DNA of 21,688 nucleotides. It comes from a virus. Shown here in pieces: positions 309 to 21,648 of this stretch. The number at the start of each line of letters is the position of its first letter. The stretch's first letter is position 1. A model generated the notes under the pieces. It saw only the letters and a program-made list of their open reading frames with translations, did no database searches and was not told the origin of the DNA. Both the position numbers and the translations under genes were made by a program. The stretch is from positions 1 through 21,688 of the IMG/VR virus record IMGVR_UViG_3300031565_000438. One strand, given 5' to 3'.

Positions 309-593
309 ATGGATAGAATACTTAGACTCAAAGCCGAGCGAATCGAAGAGCTTGAAAAAGCTGTGGATGAATGGAGGACAAAGGCAGATTCAGAACTGGC
401 TATCAACGCGAGGCTGCATACTGAAACAGCAAAACTCAAAGAGCTTGAAGGGGCAACAAGAATAATATGTCATGTAGAATCTTGTTCTTGTCGTACCGCA
501 GGAATGTGCAAAGCCACGACCATACATTTACAGCCTTGTTCTCCTGATGCTGATAATGTTGTAGGTTGCTCGGAATTTACTGAAAAACCCTGA
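309..593 (+). CDS. Coiled-coil, Cys-rich hypothetical protein
   Basis: 94 residues. The first half is a strongly charged heptad-like helix (RLKAERIEELEKAVDEWRTK and onward). The second half has seven cysteines, including CHVESCSC and CRTAGMC, which suggests metal binding or a compact Cys knot. The start is supported by GGAAAA upstream and by 1-nt spacing from the previous stop. I do not recognise the family. It resembles its neighbour in plan (coiled coil followed by Cys region), so the two may be distant relatives. Function unknown. Confidence 0.6.
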   Translation: MDRILRLKAERIEELEKAVDEWRTKADSELAINARLHTETAKLKELEGATRIICHVESCSCRTAGMCKATTIHLQPCSPDADNVVGCSEFTEKP

Positions 594-1318: not shown

Positions 1319-1351
1319 TTCACGCCACCTTTCAAGTTATCGTTATACTTT

Positions 1352-1399
1352 CAGCACACAAGCCCGGCCAGTGGTTAGGCTGACCGGTAGTGTGGGCTG
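1352..1399 (-). other. Stem-loop in operon spacer
   Basis: The spacer between two leftward genes holds a long hairpin. The inner arms CCGGCCAG (1364-1371) and CTGACCGG (1380-1387) pair with one G-U. The outer arms CAGCACAC (1352-1359) and GTGTGGGCTG (1390-1399) pair with a small bulge. There is no U-tract, so it is not a clear terminator; mRNA protection or processing is more likely. Confidence 0.5.
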
Positions 1400-1406
1400 T
1401 TAGGAA

Positions 1407-1661: not shown

Positions 1662-1826
1662 TTAGCCTTCAGCTATTTCTTCGGCTTCCTCTATTGTGTC
1701 AAACGGGCCTTCGACTGTATCATAACCACTGGCCTCTGTTGTAGCTTCATCTGGACTGTCTACACTAAATACATCACATTTAGGGCCGTGTACGCCATCG
1801 CACCAACCTACATAATATTTTAACAT
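1662..1826 (-). CDS. 54-residue acidic hypothetical protein, first gene of leftward operon
   Basis: The ATG at 1826 is preceded by a strong AAAGGATAGGAAA ribosome site, and TAA is at 1662-1664. The protein begins MLKYYVGWCDGVHGPKCDVF and ends in a very acidic helix (PFDTIEEAEEIAEG). Two cysteines lie in the N-terminal part. The family is not recognised. It is the first gene downstream of the leftward promoter and its structured leader, so any attenuation there would act on this gene first. Confidence 0.65.
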   Translation of the reverse strand: MLKYYVGWCDGVHGPKCDVFSVDSPDEATTEASGYDTVEGPFDTIEEAEEIAEG

Positions 1827-1830
1827 TTTC

Positions 1831-1938
1831 CTATCCTTTCAAATAAAAAGCCCCGACACAATATGAAAGCCGACCAAAGCTTAGAGGGAAAGTGCCGGAG
1901 CTTATGATTGATTTGATTATGGCCTTGGTCGTTTTCAT
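1831..1938 (-). promoter_or_regulatory. Structured leader of the leftward operon: two interleaved stems, possible attenuator/pseudoknot
   Basis: Read leftward, four arms occur in the order A-B-A'-B'. A (1938-1922) pairs with A' (1880-1863) over about 16 bp with one small internal loop. B (1902-1892, AGCTCCGGCAC) pairs with B' (1859-1849, GTGTCGGGGCT) over 11 bp with two G-U pairs. B' is followed by TTTTTATTT, as in an intrinsic terminator. The stems must form a pseudoknot or exclude one another. A 35-codon ORF (ATG at 1938, TAG at 1831-1833, inside the next ribosome site) spans all four arms. It has no ribosome site and would be nearly leaderless. Pairing is seen directly; attenuation is inference. 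Confidence 0.5.
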
Positions 1939-1947
1939 ACTGTTATT

Positions 1948-1976
1948 ATTATCGACTACTTAGGCTAATTTGTCAA
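1948..1976 (-). promoter_or_regulatory. Sigma70-like promoter for leftward operon
   Basis: On the minus strand, TTGACA (1976-1971) is separated by 17 bp from GATAAT (1953-1948), a full -35 match and 5/6 -10 match. The start of transcription would be near 1941, just before the leader arms. It is the best promoter match in the window and points to host sigma70-type transcription of this operon. Confidence 0.7.
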
Positions 1977-2166: not shown

Positions 2167-2218
2167 AGTCAGCCTTCGGATACTATGGATTTAGAAAAGC
2201 CGAGGGCTGGCTTTTTTT
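2167..2218 (+). terminator. Intrinsic terminator, rightward
   Basis: The arms AGTCAGCCTTCGG (2167-2179) and CCGAGGGCTGGCT (2200-2212) pair over 13 bp with two G-U pairs. They enclose a 20-nt loop and are followed directly by a run of seven T. No recognised rightward gene lies just upstream, so it ends either a short RNA or a leader transcript from the control region. Confidence 0.75.
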
Positions 2219-5352: not shown

Positions 5353-5544
5353 ATGACAGTAGAACGTGAAATTAGCGGTAGAACGGACTTGACTATTAAC
5401 GAGGCCGTCAAGGAACGTCTGGAACTCATTGAATATATGAAGTCGGAGAACTGGACATTTCCGGTCATAGAGAAGATTGAGCGGCGTATTGCTGACTTGA
5501 ATAACCTGATAGCCGAGAGAGTAACTGATGGATGTAACTCCTGA
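5353..5544 (+). CDS. 63-residue helical protein directly before TerL
   Basis: Charged and helical: SGRTDLTINEAVKERLELIE and then VIEKIERRIADLNNLIAERV. AAAGG sits 6 nt before the ATG. It overlaps TerL by 17 nt, a position often held by a terminase small subunit or a packaging accessory protein, yet it is much shorter than usual and lacks the HTH pattern seen at 3136. It may be a minimal packaging partner. The family is not recognised. Confidence 0.65.
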   Translation: MTVEREISGRTDLTINEAVKERLELIEYMKSENWTFPVIEKIERRIADLNNLIAERVTDGCNS

Positions 5545-7198
5545 AGAAATAGCAAGAGAAGACGCCGGATACTGGGCTGTACTAAATGAAATCAAACTCC
5601 AGAGCGGGGTTTTTTCATGGAATACTCGCGAATACCAAAGGGAGCCTCTTAGTTCTGAAGCCAAGAGAATATGTTATATGAAAGCCACACAACTTGGTTT
5701 TACTGAAATGGAGGTTTTGAGGTCACTTCACGGTTTGATACACGGTCGTTATCCGAGAGGTATTGGTTATTATTTTCCAACTAACGATGATGTTCAGGAA
5801 TTTGGCAAGTCCCGATTCAATCCATTGATACAGTCTAATCGTAATGCTATTGGAAAATTTGTTAAGGATACCGGCAGAAAGGGTACTGATACCGCATCAT
5901 TAAAGAAAATAGGTGATGCCTTCTTATGGTTACGAGGAGCGAGGATGCCTCGTAAAATAGATGAGCAGGCCGTATCGTCCAAGACATCATCCATTCCTCT
6001 TGATAGGATTGTTTTTGATGAATTAGATTTAATGGCGGATACCGACGATAAATTTACTGTTGTCGGCAAGGCCAGAGGAAGGTTGCGGGATTCTGAATTA
6101 TCGGAAGAGTGTTTCATTTCTAATCCGACCACACCCAATTTTGGTATAGACACTTTCTTTGCCAAATCCGACCAGAGACAATGGTTCAGGTTTTGTGAGG
6201 CTTGTGGCAAACATACGACTTGTGCCGAACTCTTCTTTATGGAAGACCCTGAAAAATGCGTGAGATTGCGCAAGGATGGTTCTGGTTATATTACTTGTCT
6301 GAAATGTGGAAAAGAGATTCCTAACTATCCCGGCGAATGGGTTCCTGCTTATCCCCAAAAATCTGCTTATATGCACGGTTATCAATTATCTCAATTAACA
6401 AGCGTAAGAAACGACCCTGCCGAAATACTTTCAGAGTACAGAGACCCACCAGAAGATAATTTAAGCTCGATTGTCCGATTAAGATTAGGTTGGCCTCATA
6501 TCTCTGCGGAGGACAAGTTAAGAAAAGAAGATGTTCTGAGTTGTTGTGGTGAAAGTAACTATCCTCTCAACTCCCATCCCGGTCCTTGTTTGATGGGTTT
6601 GGATTGTATGAAGGGCAAACATCTGATTATAGGCGCACGCACAGGCTCGGAAAGTTTTGAAATCTACAAGCTCGCTATAATCAGGGGCGAGGGGATGGAT
6701 AGTTGGAATGAGATAGAGGACATTTGTAAAAGGTTTAATGTTAAGGTCGGCGTAGTCGATATTCGGCCATACGAAGATATGGCGAGACATTTCCAAAAGA
6801 AGGTAAATTTCAAAGTATGGTTATGTGAGTACAAGGAAACTACCCCTCTTGGTTCGATATTTAATCCGAACACGAAGATGGTAAGCGTATGTCGAACAGA
6901 GATTATGGATACTTCTCATAGGTTGGTAATAACGCCTGGCAATTTAGTTCTTCCTCGCAGGAGTCCTGAGATAATCGAATTTGCCAGACAGTTATGTTCT
7001 CCGTTTAAGGTAGAGGAGTTGAACAAGAAAACAAAACAAATGGTCTATCGTTATCGCAAAACAAATGACCCAGACCACTTCCGTCATTGCTTGAATTATT
7101 TACTTCTGGCTGGAAACAAATCGGGCATAGTGACAAAACATGGAAGAAACAGAAAACCCCGCCAGACGGTAGCCAACAACGATTATGCAAGAGTATGA
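5528..7198 (+). CDS. Terminase large subunit, GpA type
   Basis: 556 residues. This is the packaging motor that pumps DNA into the prohead and cuts concatemers. A deviant Walker A, KATQLGFTE (residues 52-60), fits the GpA family, where KSAQxGxTE-like loops replace the classical P-loop. The Walker B is IVFDELDLM (161-169). A zinc-ribbon-like Cys pair set (C223, C226, C257, C260) is typical of GpA proteins. The nuclease part shows GLDC (D359), VVDIRP (D411) and DPDHFRHCLNY (514-524), fitting an RNase H-like fold with late acidic and His residues. Length is slightly below lambda gpA, as for other phage relatives. The start overlaps the preceding gene. Confidence 0.95.
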   Translation: MDVTPEEIAREDAGYWAVLNEIKLQSGVFSWNTREYQREPLSSEAKRICYMKATQLGFTEMEVLRSLHGLIHGRYPRGIGYYFPTNDDVQEFGKSRFNPLIQSNRNAIGKFVKDTGRKGTDTASLKKIGDAFLWLRGARMPRKIDEQAVSSKTSSIPLDRIVFDELDLMADTDDKFTVVGKARGRLRDSELSEECFISNPTTPNFGIDTFFAKSDQRQWFRFCEACGKHTTCAELFFMEDPEKCVRLRKDGSGYITCLKCGKEIPNYPGEWVPAYPQKSAYMHGYQLSQLTSVRNDPAEILSEYRDPPEDNLSSIVRLRLGWPHISAEDKLRKEDVLSCCGESNYPLNSHPGPCLMGLDCMKGKHLIIGARTGSESFEIYKLAIIRGEGMDSWNEIEDICKRFNVKVGVVDIRPYEDMARHFQKKVNFKVWLCEYKETTPLGSIFNPNTKMVSVCRTEIMDTSHRLVITPGNLVLPRRSPEIIEFARQLCSPFKVEELNKKTKQMVYRYRKTNDPDHFRHCLNYLLLAGNKSGIVTKHGRNRKPRQTVANNDYARV

Positions 7199-7563: not shown

Positions 7564-9201
7564 ATGGCAGATAAAACAGCAGAACAGTACATAAAATCAT
7601 ACGAAATCGAGTGGGGCAAGAACGGCAACTTCCGCAATCTCTGGCAGGAGACCGCCGATTTAATGTTTCCTCGTGAAAGCAACATATCCACTACCAAGTA
7701 CAGAGGCACGGAACAGACCAAAAAGGTTTATGATACTACTGCTATTACCGATTCAAAGGAAATGGCTGATGGCCTGTTGTCTGCGATTATTCCCGCTGGA
7801 GAACATTTCTTTCAGTGGAATGTATCTAAAGACAATATCGGCGGACAATCGGATGAATACGAAGATTGGTGTGCGAGGGCTACCGATAAGCATCACAGGT
7901 CTTTATTCGCTTCCAATTTCATGTCGCAGGAGAGCGAGTTTATGCGCTCTCTTATCTGTTTCGGGACGGGAAATACCTATTCCGAATGGTCTGTAAAGGC
8001 TGGTGGTCTGAATTTCAAGGACTACGATATAGCGCTCTACATAATGCTCCTGAACAATGAGGGCATTGTAGATACTATGATGATAAAATTCCCCTTCACC
8101 GCAAGGCAGGCTGTTCAGCAATGGGGTGATAAGGCAGGCAAGAAGATATTGGAGGCTAACGCAGACTCCAAGAAACAAGAGGATATATTCCAGATACTGC
8201 ACGTAGTCAAACCGAGAGAAAAAAGGAACCCACGATATTCGGAAGACCCGATGAATATGCCTTGGGAGTCTGTCTATATCGAAGTAGAACACAAGCATTT
8301 GATTGACGAAGGTGGATTTCCTGATTTTCCATATCATCCTGCAAGATGGATGGTGACTACAGGCGAAATTATGGGCAGGGGCATAGGAACACAGATACTT
8401 CCACAGGTCAGGGTCTTACAGAAGATGAGGTGTGACAAGGTAGAATGCGGCAATAAACATAATAATCCAGCCCTTGAAGTTCTCGAAAGTTTTGAGGGTG
8501 AGGTTAAAGTATTCGCAGGAGCTATCAATCGTGTTCAGGAATTAAATTCGATAGCTCCAATAAAAGGTGTTCAAGGCAATCTACAAGCTACTAAAGAAGA
8601 AGTTGAGGCTGAACGAGAAGAAGTTCATACTGCTTTTTATAAGAACGTCTTTAATCCAATTACAGGTCTTAAAGGCGACAGAAGGACTACGGTAGAGATA
8701 CGTGAAAGAACACTCGAAGGACTAAGACGGGTAGGTCAACCAGTCGGTAGATTACAAACGGAGCATTATGAGCCTCTACTTAAAAGGACATTGATGCTTG
8801 AGATAGAGAATGGTGAGATACCCAGACCACCGCTTGGTCTTGAGACTGTAGAGATTGAGTATTTAGGTTTAATGGCAAATGCTCTTAGTTCAGGACAGGC
8901 CGCAGCCTACCAGAAAGGCGTTGCGATAGGTCTTCAGATGAAAGAACAAATTCCAGAAATAATGGATAATATCAACGTTGATGAAGGATACAGGAATCTA
9001 TGCCGTCAGTTAGGTATGAGAGCTGAAGATATAAAGTCAACAGACGACAGGGACGCTATCAGGAAAGCACGTCAGGCCGAACTTCAGAAACAACAGGCGC
9101 TTGAAGCTGCTCAGGTCGCTGCTCAGGCTTATGGACAGACCACAGGTGCGCCGGAAGAAGGCAGTCCGGCGGGGAAAGTTATGGAGGCCACAAATGCCTA
9201 A
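7564..9201 (+). CDS. Portal (head-to-tail connector), T7 gp8-like
   Basis: 545 residues, close to T7 gp8 (536). It forms the dodecameric ring at the packaging vertex. N-terminal family features are WQETADLMFPRE and YDTTAITDSKEMADGLLSAI followed by IPAGEHFFQW. The central body has the MGRGIGTQILPQVRVLQKM segment that matches the G-x-G-x-G stem region of these connectors. The C-terminus is Ala/Gln-rich (QKQQALEAAQVAAQAYGQ), as expected for the barrel or tail of the ring. The position after TerL and before the scaffold and capsid is canonical. No truncation is seen. Confidence 0.92.
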   Translation: MADKTAEQYIKSYEIEWGKNGNFRNLWQETADLMFPRESNISTTKYRGTEQTKKVYDTTAITDSKEMADGLLSAIIPAGEHFFQWNVSKDNIGGQSDEYEDWCARATDKHHRSLFASNFMSQESEFMRSLICFGTGNTYSEWSVKAGGLNFKDYDIALYIMLLNNEGIVDTMMIKFPFTARQAVQQWGDKAGKKILEANADSKKQEDIFQILHVVKPREKRNPRYSEDPMNMPWESVYIEVEHKHLIDEGGFPDFPYHPARWMVTTGEIMGRGIGTQILPQVRVLQKMRCDKVECGNKHNNPALEVLESFEGEVKVFAGAINRVQELNSIAPIKGVQGNLQATKEEVEAEREEVHTAFYKNVFNPITGLKGDRRTTVEIRERTLEGLRRVGQPVGRLQTEHYEPLLKRTLMLEIENGEIPRPPLGLETVEIEYLGLMANALSSGQAAAYQKGVAIGLQMKEQIPEIMDNINVDEGYRNLCRQLGMRAEDIKSTDDRDAIRKARQAELQKQQALEAAQVAAQAYGQTTGAPEEGSPAGKVMEATNA

Positions 9202-11269: not shown

Positions 11270-12190
11270 ATGAGTGTTCAAATACCAGTAGCATTTGTTG
11301 ACCAGTACAAGGACAACATTCTGCTCTTATCCCAGGAAGAAACAGCACTTCTCCGGGGATGTTGCAGAATGGAGGACATGACTGGCGACACAATGTATGT
11401 CGAGCGAATCGGTGCTACGTCGATGCAGCCGAAGAATGTTCGACACGGGAACACCCCGCAGATTGACACACCGCACTCAAGACGCAAGTTGTCGGTAGCC
11501 GACTACAACTGGGCTGACCTGATTGATAGTACCGATAAGCTCAAAATGCTTATCGACCCTCAATCGGTTTATGTCCGAAACGCAGTTGCGGCTGCCAATC
11601 GCCAGATAGACGATGTTATCATCGCAGCCCTCGGTGGAGCCGCTTACAGCGGCCATACAGGGGGTACTACGGTCAATAACTATGACGTAGGCGAATGTCG
11701 TCTCGTAGATGGTGATGGCACGATTGCTGCTGCCGGTAGTAACCATAGCGCCGTTACAGAAACGGCGTTGACTATCGCCAAACTTTTGACTTGCAAACAA
11801 CTTCTTGATGATGCGCATATCAACGATAGAAGGCAGCGTTATTTCCTCTGCAACCCTTATAACATCAACCAATTACTCAACACCACTGAAGTTAAGAGTG
11901 CGGACTATAACACTGTAAGAGCGCTGGCTCAAGGCCAGATAGATACATTTATGGGATTCAAGTTCATCAAGCATACAGAACTTCCTGCGGATACCGAAGA
12001 TGCAGGATGTACCGTATGCTACGCATTTGCGCAAGATGCTATCGTGCTTTCAATTGCCGAGGAGCCGACAGTCCGAATTGATGAGCTTCCCACGAAATGT
12101 TACAGCGTGCAGATTTATGTGGAACAAAGTCTCGGTGCAACCAGGGTAGAAGGCCCGGCGGTGGTCGAAATCGACCTTGAAACGCCCTAA
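11270..12190 (+). CDS. Major capsid protein
   Basis: 306 residues with AAAGAGG before the ATG. It resembles the Phage_capsid_2-type podovirus capsid family. The N-terminus is MSVQIPVAFVDQYKDNILLL, followed by MYVERIGAT near residue 42. The characteristic block DTPHSRRKLSVADYNWADLI, then DKLKMLIDPQSVYVRN (to about residue 104), is visible. A middle helical region (RQIDDVIIAALGG) precedes insertion-like loops, and the end has the usual SLGATRVEGPAVVEI strand. The location after the scaffold and a private leader sequence fit the most abundant virion protein. Confidence 0.9.
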   Translation: MSVQIPVAFVDQYKDNILLLSQEETALLRGCCRMEDMTGDTMYVERIGATSMQPKNVRHGNTPQIDTPHSRRKLSVADYNWADLIDSTDKLKMLIDPQSVYVRNAVAAANRQIDDVIIAALGGAAYSGHTGGTTVNNYDVGECRLVDGDGTIAAAGSNHSAVTETALTIAKLLTCKQLLDDAHINDRRQRYFLCNPYNINQLLNTTEVKSADYNTVRALAQGQIDTFMGFKFIKHTELPADTEDAGCTVCYAFAQDAIVLSIAEEPTVRIDELPTKCYSVQIYVEQSLGATRVEGPAVVEIDLETP

Positions 12191-14120: not shown

Positions 14121-14921
14121 ATGGCTTCGCCTACAACGAAGACGGATTTGTGTAATATGGCCTTGGGCAGAATAGGCCATAAGACAGTAACGGTCGCTCT
14201 GATTACAGCCGATACCGACCCTACAGCCGTTAAGTGTAACCTTCATTACGAACAGACCAGAGATGCTCTGTTAAGGTCTTACTGGTGGCGGTTCGCAGGG
14301 GCAAGGATAAGGCTTGCTTCGTCTTGGGTGACGGCTACGGCTTACACAACCGACCAGTACGTATCGAATGATTCTGTCTGGTATAAATGTCTGCTTGCTC
14401 ATACTTCCGGCGACTTGGACGATGAGCCTGGAACCGGCGTTGTTGAAGCTACTTATTGGACTACGCTCACAGCGGTTGATTATACTCCTGTTAATGAGTG
14501 GGACTTTATGTGGTCTTTGCCGGCCGACTTTTTGGCGAGCAGGTACACTTACGATGACAATGATGCTCACCGTTCCGTGTATTCCTTTATAATCGAAGGG
14601 ACTAAGTATTACACCAGAGAGACTTCGGTAGATTATGTCTATACCAAAAAAGTAGAGACCGTTGCATCATTCGACCCGCTTTTCATCGAAGTCCTTGTCC
14701 TATCACTTGCCGTTAAGTTATGTATGCCAATTACGCAGGACAAGGAAATGTACGTCCTTCTCAAAGATGAACTTTATGGTACTGCAAGGAAACCAGGCTT
14801 AATGTCAAAGGTCAGGGCAATGGACAGGCAGGAGCAGAACACTAAGGGTCTTTTCGATTACAATACATGGCTTGCCGCATTTAGAACATCGAGAGACCCG
14901 ACCAAGTTAGGGAGTTCTTAA
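14121..14921 (+). CDS. Tail tubular protein A / adaptor with inserted carbohydrate-binding-like module
   Basis: 266 residues. The N-terminal region TDLCNMALGRIGH, then HYEQTRDALLRSYWWRFAGAR, is typical of gp11-like tail tubular/adaptor proteins that sit below the portal. The YWWRFAGARIRLA helix is interrupted after about residue 66 by a segment with Trp, Tyr, Asp and Gly in a pattern like a CBM5/12-type chitin-binding module (WVTATAYTTDQYVSND, VWYKCLLAHTSGDLDDEP, then YWTTL, to about residue 120). The adaptor fold resumes with WDFMWSLPADFLASRY. The insert could contact a surface glycan. A compact TAATG overlap leads into the glycosyltransferase cassette. Confidence 0.75.
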   Translation: MASPTTKTDLCNMALGRIGHKTVTVALITADTDPTAVKCNLHYEQTRDALLRSYWWRFAGARIRLASSWVTATAYTTDQYVSNDSVWYKCLLAHTSGDLDDEPGTGVVEATYWTTLTAVDYTPVNEWDFMWSLPADFLASRYTYDDNDAHRSVYSFIIEGTKYYTRETSVDYVYTKKVETVASFDPLFIEVLVLSLAVKLCMPITQDKEMYVLLKDELYGTARKPGLMSKVRAMDRQEQNTKGLFDYNTWLAAFRTSRDPTKLGSS

Positions 14922-15787
14922 TGCTATCGGTAATTATACCTTCGTGCAATGAACAGTTCTTACAGCCGACCATAGACGGTCTGATAGAGTCTGCCGAAGG
15001 TGATATTGAGATTATAGCTGTTCTTGATGGTGACTGGCCTAAAGTACCTATTAAGGACGACCCGCACGTTGTTCTGATACATCACACAAGACACGGTATG
15101 CGTGAAGCCATAAACGAGGCCGCCCGAATAGCTAAAGGCAAATACATAATGAAGTGTGACGGACACTGTTCGTTCGATAAGGGCTTTGATATTAAACTTG
15201 CTGCGGATTGCGAACCTGACTGGCTGGCCGTGCCTACAAGGTATAGTCTGGACGCTGAGAAATGGAAGAGAAAGCCCGACGATAGTAAGACAGTAAATTA
15301 TCTATACATTATCCCGCCCATAAAGAAAAAGCCCGAAGACGGAAGGTATTGGGAGCCTGGGTATAGCGGAGTAATCTGGCGAGGGTACGAAGAAGAAAGG
15401 AATCGCAAAGACGTTTTAATAGACGACCTGATGACCTTTCAGGGTTCCTGCTGGTTTATGCACAGAGACTATTACTTCAAGATAGGGTGTATGGACGATA
15501 CGATTGGCGGCACATTCACACGCGAAGCGCAGGAATTAGGTAATAAGGTATGGTTATCTGGCGGGAGGGTCATTCGCAATAAAAAGACTTGGTATGCACA
15601 TTTACACAAAGGCAAGCAGTACGGACGTGGCTATTACTTGGCCCGAAAGGAAATACAACAAGGTTCTGAACGAATTGTCGATTACTGGATGAACAATAGG
15701 TGGCCTGGCCAAATAAGAGACTTCAAATGGCTCATTGACCATTTTGCGCCAGTACCAGGATGGGAAAAATACGAATGGACATCTTGA
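14921..15787 (+). CDS. GT2-type glycosyltransferase with D-x-H motif
   Basis: 288 residues. It begins SVIIPSCNEQFL (GT-A nucleotide-binding strand) and continues EIIAVLDGDWP, then REAINEAARIAKGKYIMKCD-GH (D80-G81-H82), where the D-x-H motif would bind metal and donor sugar phosphate. FQGSCWFMHRDYYFKIGCMD (173-192) and WLSGGRVIRNKKTWYAH are acceptor-side features shared with the gene at 17850. Such enzymes transfer a sugar to a lipid, glycan or protein. It starts within the previous stop (TAATG). Donor and acceptor cannot be read from sequence. Confidence 0.85.
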   Translation: MLSVIIPSCNEQFLQPTIDGLIESAEGDIEIIAVLDGDWPKVPIKDDPHVVLIHHTRHGMREAINEAARIAKGKYIMKCDGHCSFDKGFDIKLAADCEPDWLAVPTRYSLDAEKWKRKPDDSKTVNYLYIIPPIKKKPEDGRYWEPGYSGVIWRGYEEERNRKDVLIDDLMTFQGSCWFMHRDYYFKIGCMDDTIGGTFTREAQELGNKVWLSGGRVIRNKKTWYAHLHKGKQYGRGYYLARKEIQQGSERIVDYWMNNRWPGQIRDFKWLIDHFAPVPGWEKYEWTS

Positions 15788-16659
15788 TAAGTACAGCTCT
15801 TTTGAATTATACAGGCGTTCCTACCTATACGCTAACGCTTTATAACCAGCTCGTATCAAGAGGTCATAAGGTTGTTGTTTATAGTCCCGAAGGTGGCGCA
15901 CTGGCGGCACGTATGAATACCATATCATCGTTGTTATTGGCTGAAAGGCCGGACGTTATTCTCGCACAACACGGCACGTTAGCGAGAGAGATGAGAAACA
16001 AGTGGCTTGATACACCGATGATATTCACTTCGCACGGAATACTACCTGAATTGGAACAGCCGCCGGTGGATATTCATATTGATAAGTACATCGCAGTCAG
16101 TGAAGAAGTCTTATTGAATTTAGCCTCTTACGATATTACAAACGTACAAATAGTACGAAACTTCATTGACACCGATAGATTTCATTGCACAAAGCCTGTC
16201 AGCGAAAAACCTAAACGGTTATTATTTTTAAGTAACTTCAAAAGGTGGCGGACATACGAAACTATTCAAAAAGCGTGTAAAATAATAGGTATCGAGTTCC
16301 GCCACCTTGGTTACACCTCACATCCCAAATATAACGTAGAGGACTATATAAACGAAGTGGATATAGTCATATCTCTTGGCAGAGGGGTACTTGAGGCAAT
16401 GGCCTGTTGCCGTCCTGTGATAGTCTTCGACCGCAGACGTGGCGATGGTTATATCAATAAAGATACTTATCGAAGAAGTCGAATGAATAATCTTTCAGGC
16501 AGGGCTTATAGTCTTGAATGCAAAACCAAAGTCTTTACGGGTTTAATATCTCAATACAAACCCGAAGATGGTATTACGAACAGGAACATAGTTCTGGAAC
16601 ATCACAACCACGTCAAGGCTGTTGATACCATTATGGAAATTATCAAGGAGGTAACGTGA
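15775..16659 (+). CDS. GT-B glycosyltransferase (GT4-like)
   Basis: 294 residues from ATG 15775; a start at 15760 adds five residues. I chose 15775 because MDILISTALLNYTGVPTYTL is the usual GT-B opening and GGGA lies upstream. The N-domain includes LYNQLVSRGHKVVVYSP and IFTSHGILPELE. The C-domain shows KRLLFLSNFKRWRTYETIQK, then DIVISLGRGVLEAMACCRPV (196-215), the conserved donor-binding E-x-x-x-CRPV loop of GT4 enzymes. Family members use nucleotide sugars and retain anomeric configuration. It overlaps the previous gene by 13 nt and the next by GTGA. Confidence 0.82.
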   Translation: MDILISTALLNYTGVPTYTLTLYNQLVSRGHKVVVYSPEGGALAARMNTISSLLLAERPDVILAQHGTLAREMRNKWLDTPMIFTSHGILPELEQPPVDIHIDKYIAVSEEVLLNLASYDITNVQIVRNFIDTDRFHCTKPVSEKPKRLLFLSNFKRWRTYETIQKACKIIGIEFRHLGYTSHPKYNVEDYINEVDIVISLGRGVLEAMACCRPVIVFDRRRGDGYINKDTYRRSRMNNLSGRAYSLECKTKVFTGLISQYKPEDGITNRNIVLEHHNHVKAVDTIMEIIKEVT

Positions 16660-17150
16660 GACCAGAACAACATATTCGTTTTAGCTCACATTTACCATTG
16701 TTGATAAGGATGATAATTGAGACTACAGGTGATGTTCTGGAATGTGGTACAGGATTGTTCAGTACGCCGGTTTTGCATTGGTTGTGCGTTCCAGATAAGA
16801 GAAGACTTGTATCTTATGACAGTAACATAAATTATTACAAGATAGCCACGCAATATGTGTGTGAATTTCATATTGTTAATTACGTAGAGGACTGGGACAA
16901 GATAGATATTGAAAAGCCTTGGGACGTTGTCTTTATAGACCATGAATGGAATAGGCGCAACATAGAAGCTCGCAGAGTGGCCGATTATGCAAAGTTTGTA
17001 ATAATACACGATACCTGTGGTAGAGACGAAAGATATTATCATTATAAAGAAACATATCCACTCTATAAATATAGTTATCAATTCTTAACCAGACCCAGAA
17101 CGAAGGTATTAAGTAATTTTGTGGACGTTAATAAGATAGGACTATGGTAA
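16656..17150 (+). CDS. Class I methyltransferase-like protein
   Basis: 164 residues with a GTG start, AAGGAGG 5 nt upstream and a 4-nt overlap with the previous stop. The pattern DVLECGTGLFSTPVLHWL (26-43) is a SAM-binding GxG loop. RLVSYDSN (50-57) provides the acidic residue for the adenosine ribose, and WDVVFIDHEWNRRNIEARR and VIIHDT follow the Rossmann-like core. It is short for the family, so it may be a catalytic core only or use a partner. It may methylate a sugar or protein made in the cassette; this is inference. Confidence 0.65.
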   Translation: MRPEQHIRFSSHLPLLIRMIIETTGDVLECGTGLFSTPVLHWLCVPDKRRLVSYDSNINYYKIATQYVCEFHIVNYVEDWDKIDIEKPWDVVFIDHEWNRRNIEARRVADYAKFVIIHDTCGRDERYYHYKETYPLYKYSYQFLTRPRTKVLSNFVDVNKIGLW

Positions 17151-17818
17151 TAAGTTATTGCATACCAATTAGGAACAGGATAGACGACTTGAAGCAATCG
17201 CTGGTAGCGGTAATTGCGGCGGCGAAGAGGAGTCCGCCGGTGGAGATTGTTATATTGGACTATGATTCAGATGACGGTTTGGAGGAATATGCCAAGACCC
17301 TGCCGCAACTCAAAGACGGTAACAACATAGTATATGTAAAGCATACGGGACATAAATACTACCACATGGCGAAAGCAAGAAACCTCTCAGCATTGGCCGC
17401 AAGTGGAGAATATCTTGTTTTGGCCAATGCGGATAACCTGCCGTCTGGATACTTCTTTCATGTGATAAGGGTTTTGATAGATGCAGGAGCGGTCTGGATG
17501 ATACCCGGCCCTTGGGATTCACTTTTGGTTATTCAAAAAGAGGAATTTATTGATGCTGGTGGATTCGATGAAAGATTCGAGTTCTACGGCCCTGAAGATA
17601 AGGAGTTAGTGGAAAGGCTTCGCCGCAGGGGGACAAAACATAAGATATACTCACGTTCATTGATTCCTGCGGTCTATACTCCTGATGTAAAAAAAGAATC
17701 AGGATACCGACTAAAAATACCAAAACAGAAAATGCACAATCTTATGATGAAATATTTTATCGAGAACAGAGAGAATAAATTGTTAGTGGCAAACCCCGAT
17801 GGCTGGGGCAAAACTTGA
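17144..17818 (+). CDS. GT2 / GT7-C-like glycosyltransferase
   Basis: 224 residues. It opens VISYCIPIRNRIDDLKQSL, has VEIVILDYDSDDG (33-45), and LVLANADN (91-98) in place of the usual D-x-D. A C-terminal galactosyltransferase-type block GGFDERFEFYGPEDKELVERLRRRG is split here as GGFDERFEFYGPED (139-152) and KELVERLRRRG. It ends GWGKT, also found near the end of the next gene. The start overlaps the methyltransferase stop. Donor and acceptor unknown. Confidence 0.8.
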   Translation: MVISYCIPIRNRIDDLKQSLVAVIAAAKRSPPVEIVILDYDSDDGLEEYAKTLPQLKDGNNIVYVKHTGHKYYHMAKARNLSALAASGEYLVLANADNLPSGYFFHVIRVLIDAGAVWMIPGPWDSLLVIQKEEFIDAGGFDERFEFYGPEDKELVERLRRRGTKHKIYSRSLIPAVYTPDVKKESGYRLKIPKQKMHNLMMKYFIENRENKLLVANPDGWGKT

Positions 17819-17836
17819 TTCCTTGAAAGGGAAAAA

Positions 17837-17881
17837 ATGAAAATGATAAATGGATGTATCAGTAATAATACCAGCACGTAA
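17837..17881 (+). other. 14-codon upstream ORF overlapping the next glycosyltransferase start
   Basis: ATG at 17837 follows AAAGGGAAAA at good spacing and reads MKMINGCISNNTST. The glycosyltransferase ATG at 17850 is in a different frame and lies 13 nt further from that ribosome site. The short ORF may couple translation, or the best ribosome site simply serves both. Confidence 0.3.
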
Positions 17882-19457
17882 TGAGATGTTCCTTGCCGGA
17901 ACTATCGAGAAGATTCTGTCTGCAATTAAGGCGGACACGGAGATTATCGCTGTCATTCAGGATTACTGGCCTGAACCACAGATAAAAGATGACCCCCGCG
18001 TAACCATAATCCACCATACCACACCAATAGGCCAAAGGGCTGCCGTCAACGAAGCTGCAAATCTAAGCCGGGCTAAATACATTCTCAAAACGGATGCTCA
18101 TTCAATGCTCGATGAAGGTTTTGACGTTAAGTTAATGGCCGACTGTGAGTACGACTGGACTGTTCTTCCCCGAATGTATAATCTTCACGTCTTTGATTGG
18201 GTCTGCGAGAACGGGCATAACTTCTATCAGGACAAATTCGGACTCAAAAAAGAGAACAAATGCCCGAACTGCCAGTTTCCTCTAAAGATGAAATATATCT
18301 GGAAGATTCGCAAGAGCAGAAAAACAGATTTTATGTGCCTCGATAAAGACTTGAGGGTTCAGTATTGGGGCAGTTATGGAGAGAGGCCGGAGGCTAAAGG
18401 TGACATAGTTGACGTTATGAATGGTCAGGGGGCGTGCTGGTTTCAACATAGAAAGAGGTTCTTAGAGTTAGGCGGCCTCGATGAAAAGCACGGCAGTTGG
18501 GGACAAGTCGGCGCTGAAATCGCTTGTAAGGCTTGGTTGTCTGGCGGCAGGCATGTAGTCAATAAAAAAACTTGGTTCGCCCATATGTTCCGTACTACGG
18601 GGCCGTTTGGCTTTCCTTATAAGATACACGGTTCAGAACAGGAGAAGGCACGTCAGTATTCGCGTGACCTCTGGAAAAATAACAAGTGGCCTTTGCAGAA
18701 GCGAAAGTTTCAATGGCTCATAGATAAGTTTGCTCCCGTTCCTACGTGGCAGGCACGTCAGGATTTATCTAAAGGTTTGGTGTACTATACCGATAACAGG
18801 GCTTCCGAGCAGATAGTTCAAGTCAATCGCAAGCTCCTTAATAATATGGGATTCCCTATCGTATCCGTTTCGTTGTATCCCATTGATTTCGGTACGAACA
18901 TCGTACTGCCGGACATTAGAGGTCGTGTAACAATGTTCAAGCAGATTCTTGCCGGTCTGGAGGCTCTGGATACGGACATTGCCTTTCTGGTCGAACACGA
19001 TATGTTATACCATCCTACCCATTTCGATTTCACGCCGGATTTGAAAGATGTCTATTATTACAATACTAACACTTGGAAGTTGCGGGAGAGTGACGGACAG
19101 GCACTTTATTACTATACCCAGCAGACTTCAGGTTTATGTGCCTATCGAGAGTTACTCGTAGAACATTATCGCAAAAGAATTGAGAGGGTCGGCAACAATG
19201 GTCACGACTACAAGATAGGATACGAACCTGGCACACACGCTTTTCCGAGGGGCATTGATAACTACAAAGCGGTTTCTTGGGAGTCTCAATTCCCGAATAT
19301 AGATATTCGACACGCATATAACCTGACCGCCAACAGGTTCAGGCAAGACCAGTTCAGAAGTCCGAAGTCTTGTCAGGGCTGGCTAATGGCGGACGAGATA
19401 CCCGGATGGGGTAAAACAAAAGACAGATTCAATGAATTCTTGAAGGAGATTAAATAA
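17850..19457 (+). CDS. Two-domain glycosyltransferase (GT2 N-domain plus second GT-like C-domain)
   Basis: 535 residues. The N-domain (1 to about 300) is a paralogue of the gene at 14921. It has SVIIPARNEMFL, EIIAVIQDYWPEPQIKDDP, KYILKTDAH (D82-A83-H84) and WLSGGRHVVNKKTWFAH. An insert with C119, H123, C138, C141 and C163 may form a zinc site. The C-domain (about 305-535) has a further conserved-looking block with DIAFLVEHDMLYHPTHFDF (376-394, E-H-D) and a long Tyr-rich tail ending GWGKT and KEIK. The two-domain form is about twice the length of single GT2 enzymes. The ribosome site fits a short ORF at 17837 better than this start. Confidence 0.85.
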   Translation: MDVSVIIPARNEMFLAGTIEKILSAIKADTEIIAVIQDYWPEPQIKDDPRVTIIHHTTPIGQRAAVNEAANLSRAKYILKTDAHSMLDEGFDVKLMADCEYDWTVLPRMYNLHVFDWVCENGHNFYQDKFGLKKENKCPNCQFPLKMKYIWKIRKSRKTDFMCLDKDLRVQYWGSYGERPEAKGDIVDVMNGQGACWFQHRKRFLELGGLDEKHGSWGQVGAEIACKAWLSGGRHVVNKKTWFAHMFRTTGPFGFPYKIHGSEQEKARQYSRDLWKNNKWPLQKRKFQWLIDKFAPVPTWQARQDLSKGLVYYTDNRASEQIVQVNRKLLNNMGFPIVSVSLYPIDFGTNIVLPDIRGRVTMFKQILAGLEALDTDIAFLVEHDMLYHPTHFDFTPDLKDVYYYNTNTWKLRESDGQALYYYTQQTSGLCAYRELLVEHYRKRIERVGNNGHDYKIGYEPGTHAFPRGIDNYKAVSWESQFPNIDIRHAYNLTANRFRQDQFRSPKSCQGWLMADEIPGWGKTKDRFNEFLKEIK

Positions 19458-20101
19458 TGGCAGCGGTAGATACAATTTTAATTTTAGATGGGATTATGCA
19501 CCAGAAGGAAACAACTTCTGACATTTATACCCAAGACCATGCAACGAACTCGTCTGTATATAGCAACCAGTTTCACATACCACTTGTATATAAGGCAGCA
19601 AGGGTAATCTATAACGGAGCTTACGACCCTGATGGTGGTAGAGTTCATTATCGAACTAAGTTATTGAGGACAACATCAATTACGACACCTACGAAAACAG
19701 CTAATCAAGAGGATGCTTGGTTGGCATTAACACCGCCAGCCGTTGCCGAGAGTTCGGCTTTTGATACAAGTGCTTCATGGGACTCAATTATTGCTGTTGA
19801 TGTATGTCAATCTTCGGTAACTGCAAACACAACCGGCATTGAAGTTATTGTTCAGGGCAGGAAAGAAGATTCTGTTGACGAATGGGTAACAATAACAAAA
19901 GTTAACGTACTGGCATATGCTGCCGTAGCTGTTAAATCCGACTTTGCAGCACAGGAAGCGGCAGCGCAAACTACACTTTCTGTAACAGACCCAACAACCG
20001 GCAAACTTACTCATCTTGGTAAGTTTGTTTTCCTTGAGGATACAGTTACGATAAATAATAGCGAAATAGCTTTTGTCGTTGAATGTGGAGCTGATGCCTA
20101 A
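19457..20101 (+). CDS. 214-residue structural-type hypothetical protein
   Basis: It overlaps the previous stop (TAATG), with GGAG upstream. The composition is rich in Thr, Ala, Ser and Val with beta-strand-like stretches (SWDSIIAVDVCQSSVTANTT, GIEVIVQGRK). There is no signal peptide or membrane segment. A tail-associated or decoration protein is suggested by its place between the glycosyltransferases and the LamG-Ser-rich protein. No family recognised. Confidence 0.65.
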   Translation: MAAVDTILILDGIMHQKETTSDIYTQDHATNSSVYSNQFHIPLVYKAARVIYNGAYDPDGGRVHYRTKLLRTTSITTPTKTANQEDAWLALTPPAVAESSAFDTSASWDSIIAVDVCQSSVTANTTGIEVIVQGRKEDSVDEWVTITKVNVLAYAAVAVKSDFAAQEAAAQTTLSVTDPTTGKLTHLGKFVFLEDTVTINNSEIAFVVECGADA

Positions 20102-21648
20102 TGGGTTGGCCATATCAACAAAAACCACCTATGGGATGGCCATTAGACTACGATAGTGGTCTTGTGCCTGATGCTGGCTTCTGGCCTATGCTTGAAGGCT
20201 CAGGCGGTCAAGTCTTTGATTTGAGCGGGAATGGTACTACTGCAACATTGATGGGTACTGCTGCTTGGTCAACTGGCTCAATGGGGTCTCAGATAACTAC
20301 AGATGATAATGGTGATAATCATATTTTAATTAATACCCCATATCACGATTACAGTAATGGTTTTACATGGGTTTATTGGGCGAAAATTACAGAACCAGCA
20401 GCATTATGGAGTGAAGACACTATAATATATGGTTATCGAGACGATGATAACACAATAATGCTCTCTTTGGAACATCGAGACGGGACTTTATATTGGTTTA
20501 ATATAAGAATTGAATTTGGTGGTACAGTAGTATCAACCAAAAAGGTTTATACGGACGGTTGGCCTTTTGGAAATAGCATAGCTTGTTTTGTTGTTTCATG
20601 GGACAAGGCTACAATTCGGTTATATGCAAATGGTGTTGAACTTGTATCAATAGCTCAAGTCGCTGCACCTACAAATACAATGGGGCCAAGAACACTTGGC
20701 TCTACTTGTGCATGTGACTCAGTTATTTTTTCAGAATATTTACGTGCCTTATCTGCTTCTGAAATATCCCAACTCTACCGAGAGCCATTTTGTATGTTCA
20801 AAGACCCTGCCGAGATTGCTCTTCTCGGTGGTTATGTGTCAACAGGGGCATCGGTTAGCCCGTCTGCGTCAATATCACCGAGCGATTCCGTTAGTCCGAG
20901 TATATCTCCGAGTGCATCAGTTAGTCCATCGGCGTCTGTTTCTCCGAGCATTAGTCCTTCGGCATCTGTCTCACCGTCGATTAGTCCTTCGGCCTCGATT
21001 AGTCCTTCAGCTTCTGTTAGTCCAAGTATCAGTCCGTCCGCTTCAATTTCTCCTTCGGCTTCCGTCAGTCCATCCATAAGCCCATCAGCGTCTATCTCGC
21101 CGTCTGCGTCAGTATCACCGAGCATAAGCCCGTCAGCATCGGCTTCACCAAGTATTAGTCCATCTGCCTCGGTGAGTCCGTCAATTAGTCCGTCAGCATC
21201 AATTTCACCGTCTGCGTCTGTGAGTCCAAGCATTAGTCCCTCGGCATCGGTTAGTCCTTCTGCATCGGTTTCGCCATCAGTCAGTCCGAGCATTAGCCCT
21301 TCTGCTTCGATTTCGCCTTCAGCTTCAATTTCACCATCCATCAGCCCATCGGCTTCGCCGAGTTTGACAGGTTCGATTAGCCCGTCGGCATCCGTGAGTC
21401 CGAGCGCCAGTCCTTCTATTAGTCCGTCTGCTTCAGTTTCGCCTTCAATTTCACCGTCTGCTTCAGTTTCGCCTTCGATAAGTCCTTCTTCTTCGGCGTC
21501 ACCATCTATATCCCCATCTGCATCCGCAAGTCCGTCATATTTCTTCGGTGGTATCAATTACGAAGGCCCGATTACTCACATAAAAGTAGTGGGTGGAATA
21601 GTGACAGAAGTGAGGAATCTTACCAGTAGTACAAGGAGTGTCTTTTAA
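20101..21648 (+). CDS. LamG-like protein with long Ser-Pro repeat tail
   Basis: 515 residues. After a short MGWP-containing leader, residues 20-235 look like a concanavalin/LamG domain: GFWPMLEGSGGQVFDLSGNG, the central strands WFNIRIEFGG, and the usual ending ALSASEISQLYREPF. Residues 250-479 are almost entirely Ser-Pro repeat with SPSAS and SPSIS units. A short 36-residue end (YFFGGINYEGPITHIKVVGG and so on) looks like an anchor or capping segment. The likely role is a tail fibre or other surface-exposed virion protein with a carbohydrate-binding head and an extended stalk. The Ser-rich stalk is a plausible glycosylation target for the nearby enzymes. No signal peptide. Confidence 0.75.
   Translation: MGWPYQQKPPMGWPLDYDSGLVPDAGFWPMLEGSGGQVFDLSGNGTTATLMGTAAWSTGSMGSQITTDDNGDNHILINTPYHDYSNGFTWVYWAKITEPAALWSEDTIIYGYRDDDNTIMLSLEHRDGTLYWFNIRIEFGGTVVSTKKVYTDGWPFGNSIACFVVSWDKATIRLYANGVELVSIAQVAAPTNTMGPRTLGSTCACDSVIFSEYLRALSASEISQLYREPFCMFKDPAEIALLGGYVSTGASVSPSASISPSDSVSPSISPSASVSPSASVSPSISPSASVSPSISPSASISPSASVSPSISPSASISPSASVSPSISPSASISPSASVSPSISPSASASPSISPSASVSPSISPSASISPSASVSPSISPSASVSPSASVSPSVSPSISPSASISPSASISPSISPSASPSLTGSISPSASVSPSASPSISPSASVSPSISPSASVSPSISPSSSASPSISPSASASPSYFFGGINYEGPITHIKVVGGIVTEVRNLTSSTRSVF
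20848..21537 (+). repeat. Coding Ser-Pro repeat region
   Basis: About 230 codons made of near-uniform SPSAS, SPSIS and SASVSPS units. All six Ser codons (TCN and AGY) and many Pro, Ala, Val and Ile codons are mixed, so the DNA is only loosely repetitive while the protein pattern is kept. This points to selection on the protein and to avoidance of exact DNA repeats. A long antisense ORF arises as a side effect. Confidence 0.85.

Follow-up and report, generated by a model that had tools for sequence, protein, structure and literature searches.

In a phage genome record, a set of leftward genes opens with a leader RNA of about 105 nt that bears two long stems whose arms interleave in the order A-B-A'-B', with a short open reading frame running across them: does this arrangement regulate the operon that it precedes and, if so, by what means? 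The record is a linear, 21,688-nt phage sequence (IMG/VR IMGVR_UViG_3300031565_000438), the whole of which is referred to here as the window.

Genome context

The rightward genes of the window include a terminase (5528–7198), a portal-like gene (7564–9201) and a capsid gene (11270–12190), and leftward from about 1826 runs a short operon whose genes are small and unknown. Terminases from cultured viruses reach ~24% identity at most; related terminases are found on one MAG contig each of Sedimentisphaerales (Planctomycetota) and Heimdallarchaeota and on an Omnitrophota MAG chromosome, relatives that may be taken as leads to the host only.

Several other features of the region were recorded. A row of glycosyltransferase-like genes lies within the structural region (14921–19457, plus strand; GT2/GT4 Pfam matches in four of five), and a protein with a long Ser-Pro-rich repeat (SISPSASVSPSA...) is encoded at 20101–21648 (plus strand), the repeat being open on the other strand too. 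Where the rightward side begins, seven T follow a strong hairpin (2167–2212, plus strand; −24.3 kcal/mol, z −4.3), which may be a small RNA or another terminator-like leader, pointing away from the leader studied here. In the leftward operon, another small gene is preceded by a simple strong hairpin (1340–1405, minus strand; −25.6 kcal/mol, z −3.7). One relative, L004, also has stems ahead of several genes and harbors a tRNA gene within its leftward operon (464–532, minus strand).

Anatomy of the leader

The leader (1976–1831) comprises the following features, all on the minus strand:

1948–1976, minus strand: sigma70-type promoter, TTGACA at 1976–1971, a 17-nt spacer and GATAAT at 1953–1948 (11 of 12 matches)
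1831–1938, minus strand: leader ORF of 35 codons, MKTTKAIIKSIISSGTFPLSFGRLSYCVGAFYLKG, with ATG at 1938–1936 and TAG at 1833–1831
1922–1943, minus strand: arm A, bearing the leader AUG and pairing with A'
1904–1921, minus strand: A-to-B linker, A-rich and G-poor (17 leaders pooled)
1892–1903, minus strand: arm B, pairing with B'; changes of the C-G/U.G type in L017 retain pairing
1858–1880, minus strand: arm A' (anti-A), pairing with A; three double compensatory changes relative to L017
1867–1882, minus strand: self-hairpin of A', AAGCU-UUGGUC-GGCUU, possible inside the B:B' loop
1848–1859, minus strand: arm B', the 3' arm of the putative terminator, pairing with B
1841–1849, minus strand: T tract, TTTTTATTT, read from the sequence
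1827–1840, minus strand: Shine-Dalgarno region of the first gene, GAAAGGATAGGAAA, read from the sequence
1665–1826, minus strand: first gene of the leftward operon, 53 aa, without a Pfam match

Arms A (1943–1922) and A' (1880–1858) pair over about 21 bp, composed of 11 bp, a small internal loop and 10 bp, and arms B (1903–1892) and B' (1859–1848) over 11–12 bp, including two G.U pairs. The start of B' is the end of A', and the helices A:A' and B:B' adjoin, with at most two bases in common in the window. A preliminary description of this DNA had reported a near-consensus promoter at the start of the leader, two long interleaved stems and a T-rich tract at the end of the second stem, and all three lie where it had placed them. 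Its further statement that the 35-codon ORF spans all four arms holds for the whole of B, A' and B' and for only most of A; the ORF does end, as described, within the ribosome site of the 53-aa gene (1826–1665), its TAG falling inside GAAAGGATAGGAAAATG. A second promoter-like leftward site is present at 2011–1984 (minus strand), 35 bases upstream of that at 1976–1948, both being near-consensus and in tandem.

Taken alone, the leader's minimum free energy of −27.9 kcal/mol is only slightly out of the ordinary (z-score −1.9 against shuffles, 4 of 200 being equal or better), since nested folding can credit just one of the two stems. Scored as an A-B-A'-B' layout, the leader reaches 54.4, a value attained by none of 3000 dinucleotide shuffles (shuffle maximum 44.0). 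The loop of the A' self-hairpin is the complement of GACCAA in A; the hairpin is also found in L017, L007, L150 and L207 and is missing from some leaders (pooled enrichment p ~0.003). With a UUNG-type loop complementary to A, it would compact B:B' and offer a nucleation site for A:A'.

Recurrence of the layout in other phages

About 16 more leaders of like layout occur in about 12 other phage records, with arm sequences that are mostly unrelated; one of them is located in a Sedimentisphaerales MAG contig. The first relatives were retrieved with a pattern on the end of B' and the ribosome site: L017 (= L020), L018 (= L025), L007 and L024, in which A and A' differ from those of the window, yet pair. 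In L007, L017 and L024, B' is likewise followed by the window's Shine-Dalgarno motif, and in L018 by a near match to it. A broad pattern, most of whose hits were ordinary terminators ahead of ribosome sites, was used as a control. A layout scan, blind to arm sequences, was used to find further leaders and added a second one in L024, two in L004, and those of L008, L150, L159, L154, L174, L149 and L204. The leaders L207+14487 and L214-2699 were found in longer records of L017 and L024.

The leaders of L017, L018, L024, L159, L204, L149 and L207 likewise start at promoter-like sites, and those of L007, L008, L149, L150, L154, L159, L174 and L204, together with both L004 copies, share the direction and region of the window's leader, with the terminase ~2–8 kb downstream. 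A stem with a T tract is present in most leaders, L154, L174 and L214 having only a weak T tail. At the thresholds used, the element is present in about one third of the terminase-related loci with enough upstream sequence and absent from about two thirds. No match to the window-type terminase was found in the L017, L018 and L024 records, which may be fragments, and the layout is thus probably not tied to a single virus lineage. Searches by sequence returned little: a 24-mer from the window's leader, sought as an exact pattern, gave no match, the 53-aa first protein as query gave two short, probably unrelated matches only, and distant blastn against cultured phages gave none, no characterised phage in that collection carrying a close copy.

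Outside this group, a promoter, interleaved stems and a T tract were seen at L064:4414 (minus strand), L142:7252 and 7536 (plus strand) and L037:216 (plus strand), preceding a DnaD-like gene in L142 and an HNH endonuclease gene in L037. The interleaved stems of these three records were set apart as possible look-alikes, as no leader frame is open through all arms. Hits in L010, L123, L192 and L130, at L004+788 and in coding regions were judged to be chance or nested hairpins.

Thresholds were picked during exploration, hence exact ratios are rough and the contrast with controls is what counts: among places with a T tract and a ribosome site scoring at least 44, the group had 11 against 1.0 expected from shuffles and control phage loci 6 against 3.2, and at a score of at least 48 the figures were 8 against 0.0 and 2 against 0.8, respectively. 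When the search was anchored on promoters, 13 sites (unmerged, and including three unrelated comparison loci) reached 44 or more, as against 0 in 1417 shuffled sites. A looser promoter-anchored search with merged hits gave 9 against 0.3 at a score of at least 48, the frame from the first ATG being open in seven of the nine; the control loci gave 2 against 0.3, with an open first-ATG frame in none. One or two of the nine merged hits (L010 and L004+788) are probably false. Judged at the level of sequence, the interleaved-stem layout is confirmed as real and far from chance.

Pairing is retained while arm sequences change

Sequence alignment across leaders cannot align the A arms; a comparison of own with foreign pairing was therefore used in place of a covariation alignment, covering the 15 leaders in which both helices were script-delimited (including the comparison leaders L064 and L142, and excluding the window and L024+). 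Arm A scored a mean of 28.8 (minimum 20.0) with its own A' versus 9.9 (maximum 18.0) with the A' of other leaders, and arm B scored 29.9 with its own B' versus 12.9 with those of others. Between the window and its closest homologue, L017, three A:A' pairs have changed on both sides (A-U to G-C, C-G to U-A and G-C to A-U), and two B:B' pairs are altered on one side with pairing retained. Pairing across these two sequences stands at 98% and falls to 31–47% when the partners are slid, a shuffle control being weak with two sequences (73 of 500). The preliminary description had named arms not conserved or not covarying in relatives as a result that would count against it; what emerged is a conserved layout in which arm sequences have been replaced and pairing retained.

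Under symmetric scoring, G.U combinations exceed A.C combinations (45 versus 21, p = 0.004), indicating that the RNA of the leader strand is what is kept. The A-to-B linker is rich in A (52% versus 27% expected) and poor in G (9% versus 23%) across 17 pooled leaders, and A' directly adjoins B' in most leaders.

The leader frame stays open

In 14 leaders of the group, the chosen start gives a frame without a stop up to the end of B'. Because these starts were chosen, the count was repeated with the first ATG after the −10 box; in nine promoter-proximal leaders, this frame has 0 in-frame stops over 283 codons, as against 15 and 15 in the other two. In most leaders the frames end 2 to 34 bases past B', which is the ribosome site or the start of the first gene, and those of L024- and L159 continue in frame into the first gene; L214 is an exception, with an ORF of just 7 codons. 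Arm A covers or adjoins the leader start codon or its ribosome site in the promoter-proximal leaders, the covered site being GGAGG or GAGG in L174 and L154; the second copy in L004 is an exception, with arm A lying over the end of the upstream gene.

No conserved leader peptide was found, the peptides being unrelated across leaders. For the leader ORFs of the window and L017, dN is 0.20 and dS 0.29 (dN/dS near 0.7), with differences spread evenly over codon positions. As the peptides are not conserved, the signal would not be a particular amino acid; rather, it seems that the act of translating the leader frame matters, not its product.

A candidate ribosome-gated attenuator

We propose that the leader, with its two interleaved helices, acts as a ribosome-gated attenuator of transcription heading a phage operon, with early termination as a predicted state, a reading that we consider reasonably probable. 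With no ribosome on the leader, A:A', which is transcribed first, would form, burying the leader start and preventing the B:B' terminator. Were a ribosome to pause at the start of the leader ORF, it would cover A, permitting B:B' to form with its T tract and transcription to end, and a ribosome that had advanced to B would block B:B' and let transcription go on. Finishing at the start of the next gene, it would couple that gene's translation as well. The signal sensed would then be the rate at which ribosomes start and move on the leader.

Under nested folding, which allows no pseudoknots, the two helices appear as alternatives. Masking the leader start (−15 to +16), in imitation of an initiating ribosome, gave B:B' a probability of 1.0 in all of the 15 leaders but L004a, where it was 0.91, and masking codons 6–16 gave A:A' at ~1.0 and B:B' at 0 in 13 of 15, a behavior that a ribosome-gated attenuator would require. 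Without masking, nested folds of the free RNA at equilibrium favored B:B' in most leaders, and those of the window and L149 favored A:A'. Transcription order would favor A:A' first; the default state and the condition that flips it are what we infer. The anatomy supports such a putative switch, and the layout of an attenuator or pseudoknot riboregulator recognized in the preliminary description gains support from its preservation in relatives and from the leader ORF, which stays open across leaders. Several points weigh against the proposal: arms A and B do not overlap, and by pairing alone both helices could coexist as a pseudoknot; three leaders have weak T tails; unmasked folds differ among leaders in the helix that they prefer; about two thirds of the related loci lack the element at the thresholds used; and the ORF of L214 is very short.

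Another reading, which we consider unlikely, is a translational switch without early termination, in which the first gene would receive its ribosomes from leader translation, through a coupled stop and start, and an A:A'/B:B' pseudoknot upstream of the ribosome site would tune initiation, as in repY-repZ of ColIb-P9. Such a switch fits leader ORFs that in most leaders end at or near the next start or enter the gene in frame (L024-, L159), the abutment of A' and B' in most leaders and the long, A-rich linker L1; however, the ribosome site of the first gene is without a strong stem (−1.8 kcal/mol), leaving nothing obvious to open, and the T tract after B' in most leaders would not be needed.

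Less likely still, the terminated leader could itself be the regulator, a short stable RNA whose A' would pair in trans with A of new transcripts and silence them, as P4 CI RNA or Gifsy-1 IsrK do on their own operons. A' is a full antisense of A, and several leaders allow it to fold into a short hairpin whose loop is of the UUNG type; antisense RNAs use this shape for recognition. Against this stand the finding of no separate antisense promoter or processing site and the differences among the arms of one phage's leaders, by which any action would be leader-specific, although the idea has precedents in phages (PMC4825925).

It is quite improbable that the structure is passive, a terminator or insulating hairpin by the ribosome site or a stem protecting the 5' end of the mRNA, with the ORF open by accident: phages commonly have an ordinary hairpin followed by a T tract and a ribosome site, and a simple hairpin precedes another gene of the window's operon, but interleaving together with an open frame recurs far above shuffles and controls. 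A DNA-level operator, in which a repressor would bind the arms as inverted repeats near the promoter, is scarcely credible and was rejected, given that the arms lie downstream of the start, differ wholly in sequence even within one phage and show more G.U than A.C. A riboswitch was also rejected, with neither a conserved loop nor an Rfam match.

Tentatively, the ribosome-gated attenuator proposed here may represent a modular, sequence-independent class, present in many phages of uncultivated bacteria in one to three operons each, in which helices that share no arm would be exclusive only by interleaving and an ORF of ~30–40 codons would read ribosome initiation and speed and no amino acid. If such a family exists, its arm sequences would be free to change, with just the layout and the open frame kept; it would escape sequence-based RNA searches, as the lack of an Rfam hit here illustrates, and would show phages tying operon expression to the state of host ribosomes. 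The design can be searched for in other phages by layout instead of sequence.

Comparison with known systems

The preliminary description had pointed to RNA family models as a possible source of a match, and in this respect the leader stands apart: no Rfam family, whether of riboswitches, C4 antisense RNA or other leaders, exceeds its gathering threshold in the window, or in nine other loci save for one tRNA, and the best sub-threshold match is L10_leader at 18.5 bits versus 44. Type III toxin–antitoxin systems (ToxIN), which occur in phages and plasmids, likewise place a pseudoknot-capable RNA and a terminator before a gene; an antitoxin of this type was rejected, as the leader has no tandem repeats and no recognisable toxin gene lies downstream.

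The P4 CI RNA/seqA/seqC system and Gifsy-1 IsrK-orf45-anrP are phage operon leaders with internal complementarity and early termination (predicted here), and in IsrK a small ORF lies upstream of the first gene (PMC4825925); the window's leader is similar to them in position and in its predicted logic. Unlike in those leaders, all arms of the window's leader lie within one ~105-nt RNA spanned by an ORF, and no separate antisense RNA is seen in the sequence. With ColIb-P9 (IncI) repY-repZ, the leader shares a leader ORF, pseudoknot-capable arms and coupling to the next gene. In ColIb-P9, the pseudoknot activates repZ translation and a separate stem hides the repZ ribosome site. The window's leader, in contrast, has a T tract after B' and lacks such a hiding stem, with only a −1.8 kcal/mol hairpin between the T tract and GAAAG.

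The trp and his leaders and the erm and vmlR uORF attenuators are alike in having a promoter-proximal leader ORF, two alternative RNA structures, a T-tailed hairpin before the first gene, here a putative terminator seen in most leaders, and an outcome set by ribosome position, the last predicted here. The presence of a leader ORF near the promoter is borne out by a frame kept open (0 versus 15 and 15 stops), its translation being predicted. Attenuation typically relies on overlapping structures (PMC9226507), whereas the window's helices share no arm and exclusion would come through interleaving; among the leader peptides compared, no run of control codons and no conserved stalling peptide was found. 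As these two traits of attenuators are lacking, the leader is not assigned to any family; within the open-access literature compared, it resembles a leader-ORF attenuator in its predicted working. Known attenuators exclude terminator from antiterminator by means of a common arm, and exclusion by interleaving would, within that literature, be new.
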